Origin: Deltaproteobacteria bacterium
GTDB taxonomy: Bacteria; Desulfobacterota; GWC2-55-46
Length of the DNA stretch: 33,504 nucleotides
NCBI GenBank assembly: GCA_016182655.1
Contig: JACPGB010000002.1
Coordinates: forward strand, 1-33,504
Direction of reading: 5' to 3'
In this document: positions 1,622 through 12,292 of the stretch, in pieces
How the letters are laid out: the number at the start of each line of letters is the position of its first letter
How positions within the stretch are numbered: position 1 is the stretch's first letter
Notes under the pieces: model-generated
What the model was told of the DNA's origin: nothing
Seen by the model: only the letters and a program-made list of their open reading frames with translations
Databases searched by the model: none
Translations under genes and position numbers: made by a program

Positions 1622-1966
1622 CTAAATTTTGCAGCATACCTCTTCTTCAAACTGTTTGCCCTGCAACAACTCCCTGAATGCCTGCAATGCCTTCATGGCC
1701 CATTGTTCACCGGGACACCCCCCCTCGGTCATTGCCACGTTCAAGAATTCCAGCAGCTCTTTTTCCGTCGCGCCGGCCTCATGGGCTAATTTGGCATAGG
1801 CCCTTATGCATGGTTCGCATTTTGTAACGACCACAATTGCCAGGGCCGCCAGTATCTTGTACTTCGAGGGCACCGCGTCGTCTTTGAAGGTCTCCTCCCT
1901 CATCCTTACAAGGCCGCCTGTAACCTTTGGAGTAAGTTTCCTGAACTCTTCGTAAAATGTAGCCAT
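1622..1966 (-). CDS. AhpD-like/carboxymuconolactone decarboxylase family protein
   Basis: The 114-aa protein has the all-helical AhpD/CMD layout with a CxxC pair at residues 50-53 (CEPC). In AhpD-type disulfide reductases the motif is CxxCxxxH; here the fourth position after the pair is Tyr57, so the usual proton-relay His is missing, although His62 is nearby. The protein ends EEEVCCKI, adding a vicinal Cys pair near the C-terminus that could bind a thiophilic metal. The start is well set by AGGAGG six bases upstream. It is the last gene of the merR-merT operon, so a thiol redox role in metal stress is likely but inferred. No decarboxylase activity should be assumed. Confidence 0.8.
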   Translation of the reverse strand: MATFYEEFRKLTPKVTGGLVRMREETFKDDAVPSKYKILAALAIVVVTKCEPCIRAYAKLAHEAGATEKELLEFLNVAMTEGGCPGEQWAMKALQAFRELLQGKQFEEEVCCKI

Positions 1967-1991
1967 CCGCTACCTCCTTTTTTTAATTACT

Positions 1992-2309
1992 TCATAATAG
2001 ATACGGTGATACAACCCCGAACAGCACAAACCCTGCGAGAACCCAGAAAAGAAACCTGTTTGTCCTTTTAGAGCGCATATCGCATTTTCTTTCCGAATTA
2101 CACCGGCTCGCCCTTCCATAAGAATAGCGATAAGCTATGCCCAAAAATACAAAGGATATGACCAGAAAATAGGGCCTCAGCCATTCAAATCGTAACAGGA
2201 AGCCCGTTCCCGCAACTCCGAGCACTGAAAGCACGACAGGGCCGACGCAACAAATTGAAGCGAGAAAAGCCGATACGATACCACCTATTGAAGCGAGTCT
2301 TTCCTTCAT
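1992..2309 (-). CDS. merT: MerT-type mercuric ion transporter
   Basis: This 105-aa membrane protein has three hydrophobic segments. The first carries the vicinal Cys pair SICCVGP (Cys20-21) that defines MerT, and the loop between the second and third carries Cys70 and Cys76, spaced six apart like the cytoplasmic pair of classical MerT. MerT moves Hg(II) across the inner membrane to a cytoplasmic reductase. The start at 2309 is chosen because AGAAGG lies five bases upstream and classical MerT is about 116 aa; the open frame extends to 2417 but overlaps the preceding gene. No merP and no canonical merA follow in the operon. Confidence 0.85.
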   Translation of the reverse strand: MKERLASIGGIVSAFLASICCVGPVVLSVLGVAGTGFLLRFEWLRPYFLVISFVFLGIAYRYSYGRASRCNSERKCDMRSKRTNRFLFWVLAGFVLFGVVSPYLL

Positions 2310-2319
2310 AACGCGCCTT

Positions 2320-2514
2320 CTATTTAAGCCGGATCTCTTCGCACACCGTATAGCTGGTAGGCTGGCCGCAGTTTTCCTCCGGATATAATGTGGCTTTCTC
2401 GCAATCTGCGGTGACATCCTTGACGGATATCTCTCCGCACACCTCAGCTACCTTATTTCCGTTATCACCCGTTTTTATTTTAACGGTTACTCCCAGCAGT
2501 TTTTCCCGTGACAT
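2320..2514 (-). CDS. Small four-cysteine protein of the mer operon
   Basis: I do not recognise this 64-aa protein. It is soluble, with no signal peptide, and has four cysteines at 26, 38, 49 and 58, spaced about every ten residues, with charged and beta-prone sequence between. A purine-rich GAGGGGG precedes the ATG. It starts 16 nt after merR and ends 10 nt before merT, so it is certainly co-transcribed with them. A cytoplasmic metal-binding or metal-handing role between regulator and transporter would fit its place, but that is inference from cysteine content and operon position only. Confidence 0.7.
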   Translation of the reverse strand: MSREKLLGVTVKIKTGDNGNKVAEVCGEISVKDVTADCEKATLYPEENCGQPTSYTVCEEIRLK

Positions 2515-2530
2515 ATTTACACCCCCTCAT

Positions 2531-2947
2531 TTATCTCTTTTCTTCCATTGCCCTGAGAATAGGGCACTCTTCGGTCGGGCGTCGTTTGTCGCAACAGTTC
2601 AACAGATCTTTTAGTATTTTTCTCACCGATTCAAGCGCGGCTATCCTGTTCTCAATGGATTTCATTTTGGCCCTGGCCTTCGACTTCACCCGCTCGCAGG
2701 CTTCCTTGGATGAGGCCGGTTCAACCCGTAAACCTAAAAGCTCTCTTATTTCCTCGAGCGTAAAACCGAGTTCCTTGGCGCGGCGGATAAATACGAGCCT
2801 CTTCAACGCGCCTTCGTCGTAGAATCTATACCCCGAAGCCTTTCTTTCAGCCGGGAAAAGGAGCTTACGCCGTTCATAGTACCTTATCGTCTGCAGATTC
2901 ACCCCGGCCCGCCTGGCAAGTTCTCCGATTGTGAACAACCCGTTCAT
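2531..2947 (-). CDS. merR: MerR mercury-responsive transcription regulator
   Basis: The 138-aa protein begins with a MerR winged HTH (TIGELARRAGVNLQTIRYYE, residues 6-25) followed by a long dimerisation helix. The three Hg(II) ligands of Tn501 MerR are Cys82, Cys117 and Cys126. Here Cys84, Cys119 and Cys128 keep the exact 35- and 9-residue spacing, and an extra Cys118 sits beside the second ligand. This separates it from CueR, ZntR or SoxR types. Unlike Tn501, where merR is divergent, it is the first gene of its own operon. The predicted -10 hexamer ends only six bases before the ATG, so its transcript may be leaderless. Confidence 0.9.
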   Translation of the reverse strand: MNGLFTIGELARRAGVNLQTIRYYERRKLLFPAERKASGYRFYDEGALKRLVFIRRAKELGFTLEEIRELLGLRVEPASSKEACERVKSKARAKMKSIENRIAALESVRKILKDLLNCCDKRRPTEECPILRAMEEKR

Positions 2948-4686: not shown

Positions 4687-4741
4687 TTCCTTCGATACAA
4701 ACAATTTTAAAATCCTGCGAGTTTATTTTATGAGGATAGGA

Positions 4742-5413
4742 ATGGATAAGACCAAACTCTGGTACATAAACACGAATAAAATCTTCTCCGGGCTCTCTGT
4801 AAAGGATAAGGGCGAGATAGCGTCCAAATTGACGGAATTGAACGTCAAAAAAAGAGGGTTTGTCTATAACTCGGGGGACAGAGCGGAGACCGTCTATATA
4901 CTCAAGGAAGGCAGGATCAAGATAACGCGGTTTTCCGAGGAAGGGAGGGAACTGACGGTCGATATCCTTGAGCCAGGCGACGTATTGGGCGAGTTGAGCC
5001 TGGCCGGAGAGCGAGAGCGTGAGACGGACGCTGTGGCGATGGAAGATTCCTTCCTGTGCGTCATCAAACGGAAGGACTTTGAGGATTTTATCGGCAAGAT
5101 GCCCGGTCTGTCATTCACGATAACGAAGTGGATGGGCCTTCGGTTAAGAAGGATCGAGAACCGCTTTGAAAACATGATATTCAAAGACGTGCGCACCAGG
5201 CTTGTCGCCGTATTCAGAGATCTGGCGCAACAGCACGGCGTGCCTGCCGATAACGGAACAAAGATTGCGATTCGTCTGTCGCACAAGGATATAGCGGGCC
5301 TTGTAGGGGCCACAAGGGAGACGGTGACGCTTGAGCTTAACAACCTTAAAAGAAGCGGAGTCATCCTGATAGACGGAAAGTATTTCATACTGAGCGCAAA
5401 GCATCCATCCTGA
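4742..5413 (+). CDS. Crp/Fnr-family transcription regulator
   Basis: The 223-aa protein has a cyclic-nucleotide-binding-like beta barrel (residues 15-115; GDRAETVYILKEGRIKI, LEPGDVLGELSL), a long dimer helix (about 122-165), and a C-terminal HTH (179-205) with recognition helix TRETVTLELNNL. It lacks the N-terminal Cys set of Fnr, so it is not an obvious Fe-S oxygen sensor; its ligand is unknown. The Arg-Glu pair that reads the TG of Crp sites is kept (Arg192, Glu193), but the position of E. coli Crp Arg185 is Leu197. ATG 4742 is chosen over 4730 because GAGG sits six bases upstream. A dyad 13 bp beyond its stop is its probable target. Confidence 0.9.
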   Translation: MDKTKLWYINTNKIFSGLSVKDKGEIASKLTELNVKKRGFVYNSGDRAETVYILKEGRIKITRFSEEGRELTVDILEPGDVLGELSLAGERERETDAVAMEDSFLCVIKRKDFEDFIGKMPGLSFTITKWMGLRLRRIENRFENMIFKDVRTRLVAVFRDLAQQHGVPADNGTKIAIRLSHKDIAGLVGATRETVTLELNNLKRSGVILIDGKYFILSAKHPS

Positions 5414-5425
5414 ATTTCCTCCATT

Positions 5426-5441
5426 TGTAAGCTCCCTTACA
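5426..5441 (+). promoter_or_regulatory. Crp-type operator dyad TGTAAG-N4-CTTACA
   Basis: This is a perfect 6+6 inverted repeat, equal to TGTAA-N6-TTACA, the geometry of Crp boxes (TGTGA-N6-TCACA) with G changed to A at the fourth half-site position. In E. coli Crp that G is read by Glu181 and Arg185; the adjacent regulator has Leu at the Arg185 position, which fits the change. The centre, 5433.5, is about 42 bp upstream of the predicted start site near 5476, the class II activator position. The site is seen directly; the pairing with the regulator is inferred. Confidence 0.7.
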
Positions 5442-5460: not shown

Positions 5461-5469
5461 TGATATAAT
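5461..5469 (+). promoter_or_regulatory. Extended -10 promoter of the cytochrome operon
   Basis: TGATATAAT is an extended -10 (TGn followed by TATAAT at 5464-5469). No good -35 hexamer lies 16-18 bp upstream; instead the Crp-type dyad covers that region, as at activator-dependent class II promoters. The hexamer ends six bases before the ATG at 5476, so transcription should start at or next to the start codon. Confidence 0.65.
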
Positions 5470-5475
5470 TCGTTC

Positions 5476-5667
5476 ATGAAGAAATCCAAAGGCAAAGCTT
5501 CTCCCGGCGCGGCGAAAGGGGGGAAGGATGCCTGTATCATTTTTAAGAAAGGTGAACGCATAGAATTGAAAAGCTCCATCCTGCCAAAATCTTGCAGAGA
5601 GACGGATAAGGCCCCTGGCGATAAAAACTGTGAACTCGTAGAAGATATTAAGGGAGATAATAAATAG
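5476..5667 (+). CDS. Small lysine-rich hypothetical protein, first gene of cytochrome operon
   Basis: I do not recognise this 63-aa protein. It starts with a basic, Gly/Ala-rich stretch (residues 1-17), then KDACIIFKKGERIELKSSIL, and carries three cysteines (20, 40, 52). There is no signal peptide or membrane helix, so it should be cytoplasmic. No Shine-Dalgarno is seen and the -10 hexamer is six bases before the ATG, so translation is probably leaderless. Its place directly after the Crp/Fnr dyad and before the SEC-C gene supports it being real. A metal-binding or leader-type role is possible but unproven. Confidence 0.6.
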   Translation: MKKSKGKASPGAAKGGKDACIIFKKGERIELKSSILPKSCRETDKAPGDKNCELVEDIKGDNK

Positions 5668-5702
5668 GCGCTCAGTTTAAGCGCCGTGAAAGGAGGAGAG
5701 AG

Positions 5703-5849
5703 ATGGCTAAGAATCTGGACGAAGCGTGCCCTTGCGGCTCAGGAAAGAAATACGGCAAATGCTGCGGAAAAGACGAGCCCTGTTCCTGCGGGTCGGGCAA
5801 AAAGGCCTCCGAATGCTGCTATAAGACAGCCGGTAAAAGCTGCTGCTAA
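5703..5849 (+). CDS. Tandem SEC-C-motif cysteine mini-protein (48 aa)
   Basis: The gene has an excellent RBS (GGAGGAGAG) and encodes 48 residues with eleven cysteines. Two SEC-C type zinc motifs follow each other: CPCGSGKKYGKCC (residues 9-21) and CSCGSGKKASECC (27-39), and the chain ends SCC. In SecA and other proteins a single CxCxSGxxxxxCC/H unit binds one zinc as a short tail; here two units make up nearly the whole protein, which resembles a metallothionein in scale. There is no signal peptide, so it is cytoplasmic. It lies 35 nt after the small Lys-rich gene and 69 nt before the NPC cytochrome, on the same strand. Metal buffering or delivery is inferred. Confidence 0.8.
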   Translation: MAKNLDEACPCGSGKKYGKCCGKDEPCSCGSGKKASECCYKTAGKSCC

Positions 5850-5918: not shown

Positions 5919-6473
5919 ATGGTGAAGCCTTTCATAAGGCCGCTTGTAAAGACCCTTCTGGTGATTTCAATGTTTATGCTGCTTGGTTTGCCGGAGGACT
6001 CTTTTGCAAAGGACACAAACCCCTGCTCGAAGATGTCCAGGAACCCATGCGCCGCCGCCGCCAAGAACATCCCTGTCAGAAAGAATCCTGTAAAGGATTC
6101 CGCGAAGCTTAAAGGAATGAGTGAAAAGCTCTGGGCCTCTGCCGCGCTCGGCACGTCAGGCAACTCATGCGCGACCTGCCATCCGAACGGCGCGGGACTT
6201 AAAAAAGAACCCTTCCCTAAGTACATCAAAATGGCCGACGACATCCTGACCATGGACCAGATGATAAACTTCTGCATGACGAATCCGATGAAAGGCAAGC
6301 CCCTTGCCTGGAATTCTCAGGAGATGACCGCTCTTGCCGCTTATATAACGGCGAACTCAAAGGAGAGCGCGGCGACTATGAACCCCTGCAACATGAAAAA
6401 CCCGTGCGATCTCAAAAATCCTTGCGCCAAAAAGAACCCCTGCTCGATGAAGAACCCATGCGGGGGAAGATAG
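5919..6473 (+). CDS. Secreted monohaem cytochrome c with NPC repeats
   Basis: The start at 5919 follows GGGAGGAG and begins a clear signal peptide (residues 1-30, cleavage near DSFA). The mature protein has two early NPC motifs (35-37, 42-44), one haem site CATCH (84-88), and a cytochrome c domain ending MTALAAYITA, with MINFCMTNPMKGKPLAW resembling the distal region of SoxX/TsdA-like cytochromes. The tail, 155-181, is five perfect six-residue units NPCxx(K), giving five cysteines at 157, 163, 169, 175 and 181. The tail looks built for metal or metalloid binding in the periplasm next to a redox centre. It is one base upstream of the five-haem cytochrome gene, so the two are translationally coupled. 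Confidence 0.85.
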   Translation: MVKPFIRPLVKTLLVISMFMLLGLPEDSFAKDTNPCSKMSRNPCAAAAKNIPVRKNPVKDSAKLKGMSEKLWASAALGTSGNSCATCHPNGAGLKKEPFPKYIKMADDILTMDQMINFCMTNPMKGKPLAWNSQEMTALAAYITANSKESAATMNPCNMKNPCDLKNPCAKKNPCSMKNPCGGR

Positions 6474-6474
6474 T

Positions 6475-7644
6475 GTGGTGCTCAGCGGTATAGTCATCAT
6501 GCTGTTTTTGACGCTGGCTTCTCCTCCTGCGGTATTCGGAGGAGAAGCTTCGCCGTCAGTCCATTGGCAAAGGCCTGTAAAAACCGGGTCATATGGAGCC
6601 GTGGACGGCATATATCCTGAAAGCTGCGCCGTGTGCCACCGGGCGCAGTACGATGACTGGAAGGGGGCGCTTCACAGTAAGAGCGTGGGGCCCGGACTTC
6701 TTGCCCAGTTGGACCCTGAGAAAGACCCGGAGACGGCGCTTTCCTGCTACTACTGTCATGCCCCCCTTGCGGCGCAGAATGAAATGATAGTCGATGAGGG
6801 CGGTTATGCCGCAAACGTCTCCTTTGACGAAAGGCTCAAGTCGTCGGGCGTAGGTTGTGCCGCATGCCATGTCAGGGAAGGCGGGGTTTTCGGCCCGCGG
6901 GGGCCGGAAGGGAATAAGGGCTCCCCAAGGGCTCATCACGCCTCGATCCAGAGTGATTTTTTTGAAAGGGCAGAATTCTGTGCCGCCTGCCATCAGCTTG
7001 ACCAAGGCTATGAGCTTAACGGGAAGCTCCTCGTAAATACCTTCACTGAGTGGAAGGAGAGCGAGTATGGAAAAAGTAATGTCCCATGTCAGAGTTGCCA
7101 TATGCCGGGAAGAAGGCACCTCTTCAGGGGCATCCATGACCCTGAGATGGTCAAAAGCGGCATTAAGTTCGAGGTGGAAAGGGCGGACGCGGGGGGTCGC
7201 GTCGGCGCGAAGCTCAGGATAACCAATTCAGGGGTGGGCCATTATTTTCCGACGTACGTCACGCCGCTTGTTATTGTCAAAGGCTTTCTGACCGACTCAA
7301 AAGGAAAGGTGCTGAAAGGTACGTTAAAAGAAAAGATGATAGGCAGGAAGGTCGCCCTTGATCTTTCAAAGGAGCTTTTCGATACGAGGATACCGCCTTT
7401 CAGGAGCTTTGAATTCGCTTACGGCTTAAGGCGCCCGGCCAAAGCCGACAGGCTCATCTTCGAAGTATGGGTTTTTCCGGATGAGTTTTATGACCGTTTT
7501 TTTGAAAACGCCCTCAAGAGGCGGGACCCTGCAATGAAAATGGAAGAGCTTGAAGAAGCGCTAAAAACAACATCCGGTTCAGGCTATCTTTTGTTTAAGA
7601 GGGAGGTATCTCTTGAAGAGATGTCTTCTACCGCCAAAGGCTGA
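6475..7644 (+). CDS. Five-haem cytochrome c (cytochrome c554-like)
   Basis: The 389-aa protein begins with a hydrophobic signal sequence (residues 1-23) and carries five CxxCH haem sites: CAVCH 51-55, CYYCH 91-95, CAACH 128-132, CAACH 169-173 and CQSCH 205-209. The spacing and the opening 'SCAVCHRAQYDDWKGALHS' type segment match the cytochrome c554/multihaem superfamily. After residue 225 comes a haem-free, beta-rich domain with ITNSGVGHYFPTYVTP, as in other multihaem cytochromes with an Ig-like tail. Translation starts at GTG one base after the NPC-cytochrome stop. It is likely periplasmic and an electron partner of the NPC cytochrome; the terminal substrate is unknown. Confidence 0.88.
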   Translation: MVLSGIVIMLFLTLASPPAVFGGEASPSVHWQRPVKTGSYGAVDGIYPESCAVCHRAQYDDWKGALHSKSVGPGLLAQLDPEKDPETALSCYYCHAPLAAQNEMIVDEGGYAANVSFDERLKSSGVGCAACHVREGGVFGPRGPEGNKGSPRAHHASIQSDFFERAEFCAACHQLDQGYELNGKLLVNTFTEWKESEYGKSNVPCQSCHMPGRRHLFRGIHDPEMVKSGIKFEVERADAGGRVGAKLRITNSGVGHYFPTYVTPLVIVKGFLTDSKGKVLKGTLKEKMIGRKVALDLSKELFDTRIPPFRSFEFAYGLRRPAKADRLIFEVWVFPDEFYDRFFENALKRRDPAMKMEELEEALKTTSGSGYLLFKREVSLEEMSSTAKG

Positions 7645-7932: not shown

Positions 7933-9057
7933 ATGTTTTCCTCTATGGATTCAATCCTGTTGCTGCTTGTAGTGTACATGGCGTTCTACAACGGGGCCAA
8001 CGATGTCTCCAAGGGCGTGGCCACCCTTTGCGGCAGCGGCCTGTGCGGCTACAGGACCGCTCTCCTTTGGGGCGCCATCTGGACCGTTGCCGGGGGAATT
8101 ACTGCTTGTTTCCTCGCCTCCGGCCTTTTTAAGGTATTCAGCAATGGAATAGTCTCGAGTGATATCAATCTGACGGTTAGCTTTTCAGTGGCCGTTGCCA
8201 TAGGGGTATCGACCTGGGTACTGCTTGCGACAAAGGCCGGCATGCCGGTATCCACTACCCACTCCATCGTAGGCTCGATCTGCGGCCCGGTGCTCTTTTC
8301 CATGGGACCCTCGAAGATATTGTGGGGCAGCCTGGGATATAAGGTCTTGATCCCCCTGCTTTTAAGCCCGGTCGTAGCCATCTTGGTCTCCGCTATAATA
8401 TACAAGGCAGGGTACGGCCTCCTTTCAAGGCTTTCGAGCTACTGCCTGTGCATCGAAACGAGAGAGAACGTCTGCTGCGACGGCGACGGAGGTGTGCAGG
8501 CGGTTGCTTGCGGTTCCAAATCCACTCTGGCAAAGGCCGGTACCGCGGAGGACTGCGCCGAGGGAATGGGCTCCTTCCTGCGGATGGACCTTAACGATAT
8601 GCTCCACTGGATTTCGAGCGCGCTTATATCCTTTGCCAGGGCGTTGAACGATACGCCCAAGATAGTGGCGGTCCTCTTCGCTTCTACGGCTTTCGCGGGA
8701 GGCGGCCTGAAGTCCGTGTTTCTTCTCGCCGCCCTGTTCATGGGGCTTGGAAGCTATCTTAAAGGGGTAAGGGTGACCGAGACGTTATCAAATAAGATAA
8801 CCGCTATGGACAGGCACGACGGCGTCATGGCGAACACTGCCACCGCGCTTCTTGTGCTCTTTGCCACAAAATTCGGGATGCCGGTATCGACAACTCACGT
8901 CTCCGGCGGCTCGATCATAGGGATAGGGCTTAAACGGGAAGACGGCACGGTCAATAAAAAGATTGTATCCGAGATGCTCCTTGCCTGGCTCGTAACTCTT
9001 CCAGCGGCGGGGGCTATCTCAGGTATGGCTTATATGACGCTAAATCATCTTGTGTAG
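7933..9057 (+). CDS. PiT-family inorganic phosphate transporter with Cys-rich loop
   Basis: The 374-aa membrane protein has the two PHO-4/PiT inverted signature repeats: GANDVSKGVATLCGSG near residue 21 and ALNDTPKIVAVLF near 238, plus the twin MPVSTTHSIVG and MPVSTTHVSGG segments. PiT proteins carry metal-phosphate with protons and also arsenate. The central cytoplasmic loop (about 168-212) holds six cysteines (171, 173, 181, 182, 193, 208), which is not a standard PiT feature. GGAGG sits very close to ATG 7933, so the ATG at 7945 is an alternative start. It is 17 nt before arsM and surely co-transcribed, suggesting a link to arsenic or phosphate balance under arsenic stress. Confidence 0.85.
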   Translation: MFSSMDSILLLLVVYMAFYNGANDVSKGVATLCGSGLCGYRTALLWGAIWTVAGGITACFLASGLFKVFSNGIVSSDINLTVSFSVAVAIGVSTWVLLATKAGMPVSTTHSIVGSICGPVLFSMGPSKILWGSLGYKVLIPLLLSPVVAILVSAIIYKAGYGLLSRLSSYCLCIETRENVCCDGDGGVQAVACGSKSTLAKAGTAEDCAEGMGSFLRMDLNDMLHWISSALISFARALNDTPKIVAVLFASTAFAGGGLKSVFLLAALFMGLGSYLKGVRVTETLSNKITAMDRHDGVMANTATALLVLFATKFGMPVSTTHVSGGSIIGIGLKREDGTVNKKIVSEMLLAWLVTLPAAGAISGMAYMTLNHLV

Positions 9058-9074
9058 AAAAGGAGAAGGGGAAG

Positions 9075-10022
9075 ATGGGGAAAGAGATCAGAGATTCCGT
9101 CAACGAGTTTTACTCCTCCGCCGCCGTAAGGCCCGTTGAGTCGCTCTGCTGTGCCGCAAGCTATAGAGAAGAAGATGTCTCCCATATACCCAAAGAGGTC
9201 CTGGATATATCCTATGGGTGCGGAAGCCCGGTTGCGCTCGCTGATTTAAAGGAAGGCGAGACCCTTGTGGACCTCGGCTCGGGCGGAGGGATAGACTGTT
9301 TTATAGCCGCAAAAATGGTAGGGAGGAACGGGAGGGTCTACGGGGTAGACATGACGGAAGAGATGCTCCTTAACGCAAGGGAGGCTTCTTCAAAGGTCGC
9401 CAGTAACCTGGGCTATGACATCGTCGAGTTCAAAAGAGGATTCCTAGAAGATATACCCATTGGTAATGAGACCGCGGATGTGGTCACCTCGAATTGCGTC
9501 ATAAACCTCTCCCCTGACAAGGAGAGGGTCTTGAAAGAGATATGCCGGGTACTTAAACACGGCGGCCGGTTCTGCATCTCAGATATCGTATCTGAGAAGG
9601 AGGTACCCGAAGATATGCGGGCGGACAAAAAACTCTGGGGTGAATGCTTGTCCGGCGCCATGAAAGAGGACGAGTTCATGAACGCCGCCAGAGGGGCGGG
9701 GTTTTACGGCCTGCACATTCTGACAAAGAGCCTCTACAGGGAGATCGAAGACATAAGATTCTATTCGATAACGCTTAGGGGTTATAAGTTCAAGAAAGGT
9801 AAGGAGTGCGTATACGCCGGACATTTCGCCGTATATAACGGGCCTTTTAAATCGGTCCGGGACGACGACGGGCATGAGTATCCGGTGGGACAGCCTGTAG
9901 AGGTCTGCACCGACACCGTTGAAAAGCTCAAGATGCCTCCCTATGCTGGCCACTTCACGATAACAGACCCCGAGGATAGTATGAAAGAAACCGTTGGATG
10001 CACGCCTGGAAAGTGCTGTTAG
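9075..10022 (+). CDS. arsM: Arsenite S-adenosylmethionine methyltransferase ArsM
   Basis: The 315-aa protein has the class I SAM fold with motif I VDLGSGGGIDCF (about 65-76), VYGVDMTEEML, and the ArsM family blocks SYGCGSPVALA (47-57), SNCVINLSPDKERVL (139-153), ISDIVS and WGECLSGAM (188-196). Cysteines 49, 141 and 191 lie in the conserved segments; the C-terminal domain (about 245-310) has the YNGPFKSVRDDDGHEYP and PPYAGHFT stretches, and the chain ends GKCC. ArsM methylates As(III) in the cytosol to mono- to trimethyl forms, some volatile. The RBS AGGAGAAGGGG is clear. It pairs with the PiT-like transporter. No arsR, arsC or arsB is seen nearby. Confidence 0.92.
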   Translation: MGKEIRDSVNEFYSSAAVRPVESLCCAASYREEDVSHIPKEVLDISYGCGSPVALADLKEGETLVDLGSGGGIDCFIAAKMVGRNGRVYGVDMTEEMLLNAREASSKVASNLGYDIVEFKRGFLEDIPIGNETADVVTSNCVINLSPDKERVLKEICRVLKHGGRFCISDIVSEKEVPEDMRADKKLWGECLSGAMKEDEFMNAARGAGFYGLHILTKSLYREIEDIRFYSITLRGYKFKKGKECVYAGHFAVYNGPFKSVRDDDGHEYPVGQPVEVCTDTVEKLKMPPYAGHFTITDPEDSMKETVGCTPGKCC

Positions 10023-10097
10023 TTTGAAAATCAGATTTGGGGCGCACTGTTACGGCTGTACGGCAGGGGCCGGCTCAAGCTGTACCGGTACGGTCGC

Positions 10098-10131
10098 CTG
10101 ACCCGGAATACCCTGAACGTATAATCAGGGT
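10098..10131 (+). promoter_or_regulatory. Promoter with dyad over the -10, before MerA-like operon
   Basis: CTGACC (10098-10103) and TATAAT (10120-10125) are spaced 16 bp. A perfect inverted repeat ACCCTGA-N8-TCAGGGT (10110-10131) brackets the -10, and a ten-base palindrome GTACCGGTAC (10082-10091) lies just upstream of the -35. This is a strong candidate for a repressible promoter of the flavoprotein-TVP38 unit. The regulator is not identified. Confidence 0.5.
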
Positions 10132-10177
10132 CACCTTTAAGCACCCTTCATAGTCGAGGGGAGGTTGAGGTGTTGCC

Positions 10178-11611
10178 ATGAAAAGATATGACCTTGTGAT
10201 AATCGGCGGCGGCGTCGCCGGGCTGGTCTCCGCGAGCGGCGCCGCACAGCTTGGGGCGAGAGTTGCCCTTGTGGAAAGGGAATCGCTTGGAGGGGACTGC
10301 CTGAGGACAGGCTGCGTCCCCACGAAGCGGCTGGTCCACGCGGCAAAGGTAGCTTCCCTCATGAGGAGGATGGAAGAGTTCGGCCTTGAGGGAGATCCGT
10401 TAAAGGTCAACTTCCAGAAGGTCATGCAGTCCATGAGGGACGTGAGGGTCGAGATAGGAAAGAACGACGACCCTGAGCGCTTCCGCAAGATGGGCGTGGA
10501 TGTCCTATTCGGGGACGGGAAGTTCACAGGCCCTAATGAATTCGAGATAAAAGGAGAGAAGCTTTGGGGCCGCAGGTTCATTATAGCCACAGGCTCAAGG
10601 CCGGTGATGCTCCCTATCCCGGGGTTGAAAGAGTCCGGGGCTCTCACGAACGAGACGGCCCTTGAGCTCGATAGACTACCCGGCTCTATAGCCATACTTG
10701 GCGCAGGCCCCATAGGGATGGAGTTCGCCCAGGTCTTCAGCCGCCTCGGCTCGAAGGTAACCGTAATAGAGAAGATGGGGCAGATACTGCCCAGGGAAGA
10801 CAAGGAACTCTCGGATACGCTCTTCAAGATACTGTCCGCCGAGGGGATAAGGATAGACGTATGCACCGAGGTAAAAGAGGTCAGGCAAAGCGGAGAGGTG
10901 AAGACGTTGAGCGCCCACTGCCCGACAGGGGATAAGACCTATGAAGCCGACGAGGTTATGATCGCCATAGGACGCGCGCCCAACGTGGAAGGCCTAAACC
11001 TCGAGGCCGCAGGGGTGGAATATGACAGGAGAAAAGGCATTAAGGCGGACGAAACCTTAAGGACGACCCAGAAGCACATATACGCCTGCGGGGACGTAGT
11101 GGGGCAGTACGCATTCACCCACGTCGCTGAATATCATGCGGGCATAGCGTTATCCAACGCGCTTTTCCCCGTCGTAAAAAGAAAGGTGGACTACCGTGTC
11201 GTGCCGTGGAGCACTTTTACGGACCCGGAGCTTGCGAGGATAGGGCTTACAGAGGACGAGGCGAAGGAGAAGTACGGCTCAAAGAATGTGCATGTATACC
11301 GTTTTCAATTTAAGGACGTGGACAGGGCCGTCATAGAAGGCGAGGGGCACGGTCTTATAAAGCTCGTCTGCGATAGTAAGGCCCGCATCCTCGGGGCGCA
11401 TATCCTTGGCCCTCACGCCGGAGAGCTGATCCACGAATACGTGCTCGCCATGCGGGAGAATTTGCCGATAACAAAAATATCGAGAGCCATACACGTATAT
11501 CCGACCGATTCCCAGGGCGTAAAGAGGGCCGCCGACCAGTATTACAAGGAAAAACTCTTTACAGGCTGGTTCCCGAAACTGGCGAAATGGCTGATACGCA
11601 GGGGCTCTTAA
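10178..11611 (+). CDS. MerA-like FAD-dependent dithiol oxidoreductase
   Basis: The 477-aa enzyme belongs to the class I pyridine-nucleotide disulfide oxidoreductases. It has the FAD motif IIGGGVAGLVSA (8-19), the redox pair in GGDCLRTGCVPTK (Cys41 and Cys46), the NAD(P) motif ILGAGPIGMEFAQVF, the second FAD motif IYACGDVVG, and a dimerisation domain. Two MerA hallmarks are missing: there is no N-terminal NmerA domain and no C-terminal Cys pair (the chain ends LIRRGS). The lipoamide dehydrogenase signature is also altered, with HVYPTDSQ in place of HxHPTxxE. It is followed 18 nt later by a TVP38-family gene, a frequent pairing. Hg(II) reduction is possible but not shown; the electron acceptor is open. 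Confidence 0.85.
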   Translation: MKRYDLVIIGGGVAGLVSASGAAQLGARVALVERESLGGDCLRTGCVPTKRLVHAAKVASLMRRMEEFGLEGDPLKVNFQKVMQSMRDVRVEIGKNDDPERFRKMGVDVLFGDGKFTGPNEFEIKGEKLWGRRFIIATGSRPVMLPIPGLKESGALTNETALELDRLPGSIAILGAGPIGMEFAQVFSRLGSKVTVIEKMGQILPREDKELSDTLFKILSAEGIRIDVCTEVKEVRQSGEVKTLSAHCPTGDKTYEADEVMIAIGRAPNVEGLNLEAAGVEYDRRKGIKADETLRTTQKHIYACGDVVGQYAFTHVAEYHAGIALSNALFPVVKRKVDYRVVPWSTFTDPELARIGLTEDEAKEKYGSKNVHVYRFQFKDVDRAVIEGEGHGLIKLVCDSKARILGAHILGPHAGELIHEYVLAMRENLPITKISRAIHVYPTDSQGVKRAADQYYKEKLFTGWFPKLAKWLIRRGS

Positions 11612-11629
11612 AAGGCGTGAAGGGATCCG

Positions 11630-12292
11630 ATGAACCGCAAAACTCTAAAATTCATAGCCCTTATCGCTTTCATCATCTCAGCTTTTTTCCTGGCCAGGTG
11701 GTATGGTCTGTCAGACTATCTCGACCAGGATAAGTTAAGGAGCTGGATAGACGGGTTCGGGGTCTGGGGGCCTCTTATATACATGCTCATCTATGCCATA
11801 GCGCCGAGCTTCATGATGCCCGGGCTTCCGCTTACGGTCATAGGGGGAATACTCTTCGGCCCTCTATGGGGCACTGTATACGTCCTCATCGGCGCGACCA
11901 TCGGCGCATCCATTGCCTTTCTGATAGCAAGGTACATGGGCAGGGCCTGGGTGGAGGGGTTCGTCAAAGGGGGCAGGTTTAAAGACCTCGATGAAAAAGT
12001 TCAAAAACAGGGCTGGAAGATAGTGGCGTTTACAAGGCTCATCCCTCTCTTTCCTTTCAATTTTCTGAACTACGCCTTCGGGCTCACGAACGTGAGGTTC
12101 AGCCATTATGTGATAGCCACTTTCATATTCATGGCCCCTGGGGCCGCGGCTTACGTCATATTTTCAAGCTCCATACTCGATATCTTCAAAGGCAAGGTCT
12201 CAAGGGAGTTCATAATAGGTGTCGTCCTCGTGATATCCGTCTCCCTTGTGCCGATACTTTATAAAAAATTCAAAGCAAAGAGCAGCGCGTGA
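11630..12292 (+). CDS. TVP38/TMEM64-family membrane protein
   Basis: The 220-aa inner-membrane protein starts with one hydrophobic helix (residues 5-25) and then shows the VTT/SNARE-associated domain: PSFMMPGLPLTVIGGILFGP, the glycine-rich GATIGASIAFLIARYMGR, and FTRLIPLFPFNFLNYAFGLT, with further membrane helices at about 155-175 and 185-210. Family members act on membranes; bacterial ones are poorly characterised, and one has been linked to selenite handling in related operons. The start is ATG 11630 with AAGGGA upstream. Pairing with the MerA-like flavoprotein suggests a shared transport-plus-reduction role, which is inference. Confidence 0.85.
   Translation: MNRKTLKFIALIAFIISAFFLARWYGLSDYLDQDKLRSWIDGFGVWGPLIYMLIYAIAPSFMMPGLPLTVIGGILFGPLWGTVYVLIGATIGASIAFLIARYMGRAWVEGFVKGGRFKDLDEKVQKQGWKIVAFTRLIPLFPFNFLNYAFGLTNVRFSHYVIATFIFMAPGAAAYVIFSSSILDIFKGKVSREFIIGVVLVISVSLVPILYKKFKAKSSA

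Follow-up and report, generated by a model that had tools for sequence, protein, structure and literature searches.

The SEC-C motif of the SecA tail (PF02810) coordinates a metal ion that is believed to be zinc, although iron has been put forward too (PMC6620043). Iron as the SEC-C metal is attributed to PMC7247292, as cited in PMC8076867; a preprint by the group behind that iron-ligand paper is cited in PMC6620043. In the account given in PMC6620043, the SecA motif binds SecB and ribosomes, and ribosome binding is tied to conserved basic surface residues. One review raises the possibility that other metal-binding proteins resembling SecA act as Sec accessories (PMC8076867). The role of SEC-C outside SecA is unsettled, and this includes the question of zinc or iron. 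A literature search returned nothing on SEC-C together with metallothionein, on small SEC-C proteins, on SEC-C in connection with zinc and YchJ, or on cytochromes with Asn-Pro-Cys repeats.

A conserved 48-residue protein with two SEC-C units

The window, the whole 33,504-nucleotide stretch of deltaproteobacterial DNA analysed here, contains a 48-residue ORF (5703..5849, +) that had been predicted to encode two tandem SEC-C motifs. The translation agrees, placing unit 1, CPCGSGKKYGKCC, at residues 9-21 (5727..5765, +) and unit 2, CSCGSGKKASECC, at residues 27-39 (5781..5819, +). Across the whole protein, Pfam SEC-C (PF02810) matches in two stretches with an E-value of 2.5e-10 and a score of 40.5 bits (cut-off 20.4), and the match is therefore not attributed to chance. 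In a search of the window's genome, both units exceed the SEC-C cut-off singly. The same genome holds three other matches above the cut-off, one closing SecA and the others in two frames, 244 and 247 residues long, and this search found no second double SEC-C protein in it. The longest hydrophobic run in the miniprotein is 2 residues, and the lack of a hydrophobic stretch suggests a cytosolic location. An AlphaFold2 model from the single sequence (pLDDT 55, pTM 0.26) was too poor for use.

Two details of the original prediction concern the ends of the gene. The strong ribosome-binding site can be read directly as a Shine-Dalgarno sequence, AAAGGAGG (5689..5696, +), located 6 bases 5' of the ATG, and equivalents lie 5' of all ten orthologues. 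The Cys count was overstated, with 10 rather than eleven in 48 residues. The terminal Cys pair (5841..5846, +) is present in the end SCC, as described, but is not a conserved feature: the orthologues end in CC or CCK in six cases, in a single Cys in one, and without Cys in three.

The prediction had been made to depend on conservation in relatives and on codon substitution patterns typical of translation, and both were found. A protein search of 59 genomes identified the stand-alone double form in 9, the window's included. When 63 class genomes were searched with a profile at 1e-7, 11 matched, of which 10 have a stand-alone protein, 47-54 residues in length; the match in G050 sits in a 908-residue frame and was left out of the orthologues. 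In a phylum sample of 395 genomes searched at 1e-9, matches occur in 4, all within the class. A plasmid collection gave 31 matching records, in no case over 80% of the query. No stand-alone double SEC-C protein is present among the 80 named-genome SEC-C loci listed or among the best 80 of 84 viral-contig loci, the latter containing a single frame with two motif matches, of 160 residues (L195). No miniprotein was seen outside the class, which is a result of these samples and not proof of absence.

Alignment of nine orthologues gives 23 invariant columns, including all eight SEC-C Cys, and the cysteines of the tenth agree. The ligand pattern C-x-C-x8-C-(H/C) occurs in both units of every orthologue, the SEC-C spacing is unchanged across the 10 sequences, and the Gly-Ser-Gly-Lys between the Cys is invariant. 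In a 33-codon core, the variable sites at the three codon positions number 7, 10, and 30 (33 each). Over all pairs, pN/pS in this core is 0.14 in frame versus 2.9 and 0.84 in the other forward frames, with synonymous sites near saturation in several pairs. The core is under strong purifying selection, as expected of a translated sequence, and the ORF is real and conserved. Short length is the only point in favour of a spurious ORF; with the orthologues, the in-frame selection, and the conserved ribosome-binding site against it, this explanation is vanishingly improbable.

To compare the motifs with ordinary ones, the 20 units of the 10 orthologues were set against 162 ordinary motifs, of which 116 are distinct when flanks are counted. 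These came from 80 loci of named genomes and 80 of viral contigs among the matches listed. The ordinary set was found by CGSGKK-type patterns, one of them ending in Tyr, and kept by similarity to the query. It is thus biased toward Gly-Ser-Gly-Lys-Lys and, in part, toward the aromatic; the position of the Lys after the aromatic and the position before the last Cys pair lie outside the patterns. At the former, 160 of 162 ordinary motifs have Lys, and not one of the 20 miniprotein units does. At the latter, an acidic residue is found in 18 of 20 miniprotein units versus 2 of 162 ordinary motifs. The aromatic itself, which 161 of 162 ordinary motifs possess, is missing from unit 2 in all ten orthologues. 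The SecA proteins of four carriers (the window's genome, G024, G007, and G005) have basic residues at both positions, and the conserved basic residues of a SecA-type SecB- or ribosome-binding tail are not retained in the miniprotein. By these sequence features, the miniprotein motifs are a distinct SEC-C subfamily. The further claim that the stand-alone double unit is unlike ordinary SEC-C tails is upheld across the ten orthologues.

Control region and neighbouring genes

A Crp/Fnr-family regulator gene (4730..5413, +; Pfam cNMP_binding and HTH_Crp_2) lies upstream. Such a gene is upstream in eight of ten carrier loci, and none was seen nearby in L042 and L047. It is followed by a palindrome, TGTAAG-N4-CTTACA (5426..5441), a putative operator that is retained in seven of the eight crp-bearing carrier loci (exact in five, with one mismatch in L043 and L169) and absent in L041. 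A putative -10 element, TATAAT, is found at 5464..5469 (+), and in six of the seven palindrome loci TATA[AG]T occurs 20-22 bases 3' of the palindrome. By the usual rules for Crp, the spacing between the putative operator and -10 element fits activation from a site near -41. The window's genome has one exact palindrome and three further sites with one mismatch. The palindrome also follows crp in L176 and L158, where no miniprotein was seen.

Between the putative -10 element and the miniprotein gene is a small ORF of 63 residues, perhaps decaying (5476..5667, +). Its ATG is just 6 bases 3' of the putative -10 element. Several relatives retain this start but have a shorter reading frame. This ORF has no Pfam or NCBIfam match, and partial similarity was found in L142 and L138 only. 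The window has a short hairpin 5' of the Shine-Dalgarno, but comparison of the sequences by eye showed none in L040.

Downstream, the next Cys-rich gene encodes an exported-looking Asn-Pro-Cys-repeat protein in all ten loci, at a distance of ~0.5 kb in L046. This neighbour takes one of three forms: the repeats are fused to a SoxA/TsdA-type cytochrome c, stand free, or form the tail of an SmbP-like protein. In the window it is an exported SoxA/TsdA-type cytochrome c with Asn-Pro-Cys repeats (5919..6473, +; Pfam PF21342, E 2.1e-16, and alignment). The repeat family, exported-looking and either free or fused to the SoxA/TsdA-type cytochrome, is also seen at L041:8262-8591 and, in L176, upstream of the cytochrome gene; for the free form, no Pfam family scores above its cut-off. 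SmbP-like small metal-binding proteins with Asn-Pro-Cys repeats adjoin the double SEC-C gene at L042:8178-8495, above the SmbP Pfam cut-off, and at L043:9083-9379, below it.

The next gene in the window encodes an ExtKL/c554-like multiheme cytochrome c (6475..7644, +; Pfam PF13435 and PF22113, and alignment), with an NCBIfam NF040886 match below its cut-off. A multiheme cytochrome c is downstream in eight of ten carrier loci. G051 carries it on a separate contig; G439 gave no match, and its contig ends soon after. At 1e-70, the multiheme cytochrome is present in 29 of 63 class genomes, with 30 matches. In the 1.5 kb flanks of these 30 loci, the Asn-Pro-Cys cytochrome occurs in 25 and the double SEC-C gene in 8, so that the miniprotein is accessory to a more widespread core formed by the cytochrome pair. 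As most module-bearing genomes are without the miniprotein, it is not essential to the module. The miniprotein also points to an exported Asn-Pro-Cys-repeat cytochrome module around this multiheme cytochrome, the latter being the component present in 29 of the 63 sampled genomes of the class.

Farther downstream, 7933-12292 encodes a PiT transporter, an ArsM-like methyltransferase ending in CC, a MerA-like oxidoreductase, and a TVP38-type protein. The gene order is the same in L040, at 78-92% identity, where an additional radical-SAM/DUF3641 gene separates the ArsM-like gene from the MerA-like one. On the opposite strand, 1622-2947 (-) looks like a small metal-response cluster: it encodes a MerR-type regulator, a MerT-like membrane protein, and a CMD/AhpD-type protein with CCKI at its end. 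A role in arsenic or mercury handling, considered on the basis of the window's neighbouring genes, was rejected, as the window's ArsM and MerA-like genes adjoin the operon in only one other carrier (L040). In G024, a genome of another genus, the genes for Crp, both cytochromes, PiT, ArsM, the MerA-like protein, and the TVP38-type protein have the same order at 78-92% identity; SecA identity between the window's genome and G024 is 78.5%. Four same-genus genomes searched at the thresholds used had neither the miniprotein nor the multiheme cytochrome. Horizontal transfer is a plausible hypothesis.

Candidate roles of the miniprotein

The explanation that best accommodates these findings, held tentatively, is that the miniprotein is a cytosolic two-site metal protein, made with the exported Asn-Pro-Cys and cytochrome proteins and acting as a metal-thiolate buffer or guard on the cytosolic side. 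Its conservation beside exported cysteine-rich proteins and cytochromes suggests that it probably handles metal for the gene set. If so, the protein would contain two four-Cys sites, each C-x-C-x8-C-C, with one metal ion per unit; the two sites together would probably hold two divalent ions, zinc or iron. It would be produced along with the c-type cytochromes and the exported proteins with Asn-Pro-Cys repeats, and a dedicated Crp/Fnr-type switch, the neighbouring Crp-like protein, would probably regulate the set. The most likely function would be that of a small metal-thiolate buffer or guard for an exported Cys-rich, heme- and metal-bearing module. The SmbP-type Asn-Pro-Cys neighbour in L042, related to small metal-binding proteins, is consistent with this proposal. 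A protein partner is also possible, since unit 1 keeps Gly-Ser-Gly-Lys-Lys-Tyr, beyond the needs of metal ligation.

An extended form of the proposal is more doubtful. Here, a new family of double SEC-C metalloproteins would be the cytosolic half of a two-compartment system, an undescribed exported Asn-Pro-Cys family would be the other half, and the whole would have its own Crp/Fnr-type switch. The exported half would comprise the Asn-Pro-Cys proteins in their free, cytochrome-fused, or SmbP-fused forms.

Three other roles were weighed against the two-site metal protein. The SecA tail binds SecB and ribosomes (PMC6620043); if the free SEC-C units likewise bound either of these, or some other part of the Sec machinery, they could aid export of the neighbouring Cys-rich apoproteins; exported neighbours in ten of ten loci are in keeping with this, as is the suggestion that SecA-like metal-binding proteins serve as Sec accessories (PMC8076867). 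Yet SecB is present in only two of ten carriers and 5 of 63 class genomes, and was not found in the window's genome (97.6% complete), which disfavours a SecB adaptor. Every unit has lost the Lys after the aromatic, and an acidic residue nearly always precedes the last Cys pair, a replacement expected if the metal site, and not the SecB/ribosome surface, is what is kept. On the strength of the SecB distribution and the replaced basic residues, an export adaptor ranks second and is unlikely. The miniprotein could instead sense metal or redox state as a partner of the Crp/Fnr-type regulator and tune its activity at the operon promoter. The frequent upstream crp gene and its promoter palindrome would suit such a partner, but L042 and L047 carry the miniprotein with no crp nearby, and L176 and L158 have crp and palindrome with no miniprotein seen, making this role improbable.

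The resemblance to a metallothionein raised in the original prediction leads to the remaining alternative: a scavenger in which all Cys form one metal-thiolate cluster that takes up soft toxic metals such as Hg, Cd, or As(III). The resemblance is genuine as to small size and Cys content, with 8-11 Cys in 47-54 residues, and the exported partner is Cys-rich and mer/ars-like genes lie within the window. It fails as to conservation along the chain, where the eight SEC-C Cys alone are invariant and the end Cys vary. Because the terminal pair is kept in six of ten orthologues only, the conserved unit is taken to be two four-Cys sites and not a loose metallothionein. Fixed spacing, the invariant Gly-Ser-Gly-Lys, and variable end Cys together suggest two structured metal sites, not a flexible thiolate cluster. 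The mer/ars-like genes are adjacent in just one other carrier, and, at the thresholds used, neither Pfam nor NCBIfam gave a metallothionein family match to the miniprotein. A scavenger of this kind is accordingly unlikely, and falls below the export adaptor in likelihood.

Comparison with known SEC-C proteins and metallothioneins

The miniprotein, with 48 residues that are almost entirely SEC-C and the basic residues of ordinary SEC-C replaced, sets the metal site apart from a role as SecB/ribosome adaptor and offers a simple system for testing the SEC-C metal site. On sequence grounds, it is a new stand-alone double form within a known motif family.

The closest likeness is to the SecA SEC-C tail, whose ligand pattern C-x-C-G-S-G-x5-C-C occurs twice in the miniprotein. 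Unlike that tail, the miniprotein has no host protein and carries two units in tandem; the Lys after the aromatic is lost, the residue before the Cys pair is acidic in 18 of 20 units, and unit 2 is without the aromatic. YchJ and YecA (UPF0225, UPF0149) also have a SEC-C unit outside SecA, and YchJ fragments are among the best PDB sequence matches to the miniprotein. In those proteins SEC-C ends a larger chain, whereas here it makes up nearly the whole protein. Two tandem SEC-C motifs are also found in L051:5337-8150 of a proteobacterial MAG, the only frame with two motifs among the 80 named-genome loci listed. Its motifs are ordinary and basic and end a 934-residue frame of SecA length, unlike the miniprotein. 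Bacterial metallothioneins share the small size and the abundance of Cys (10 of 48 residues in the miniprotein), but in the miniprotein the Cys are placed in two fixed SEC-C sites.
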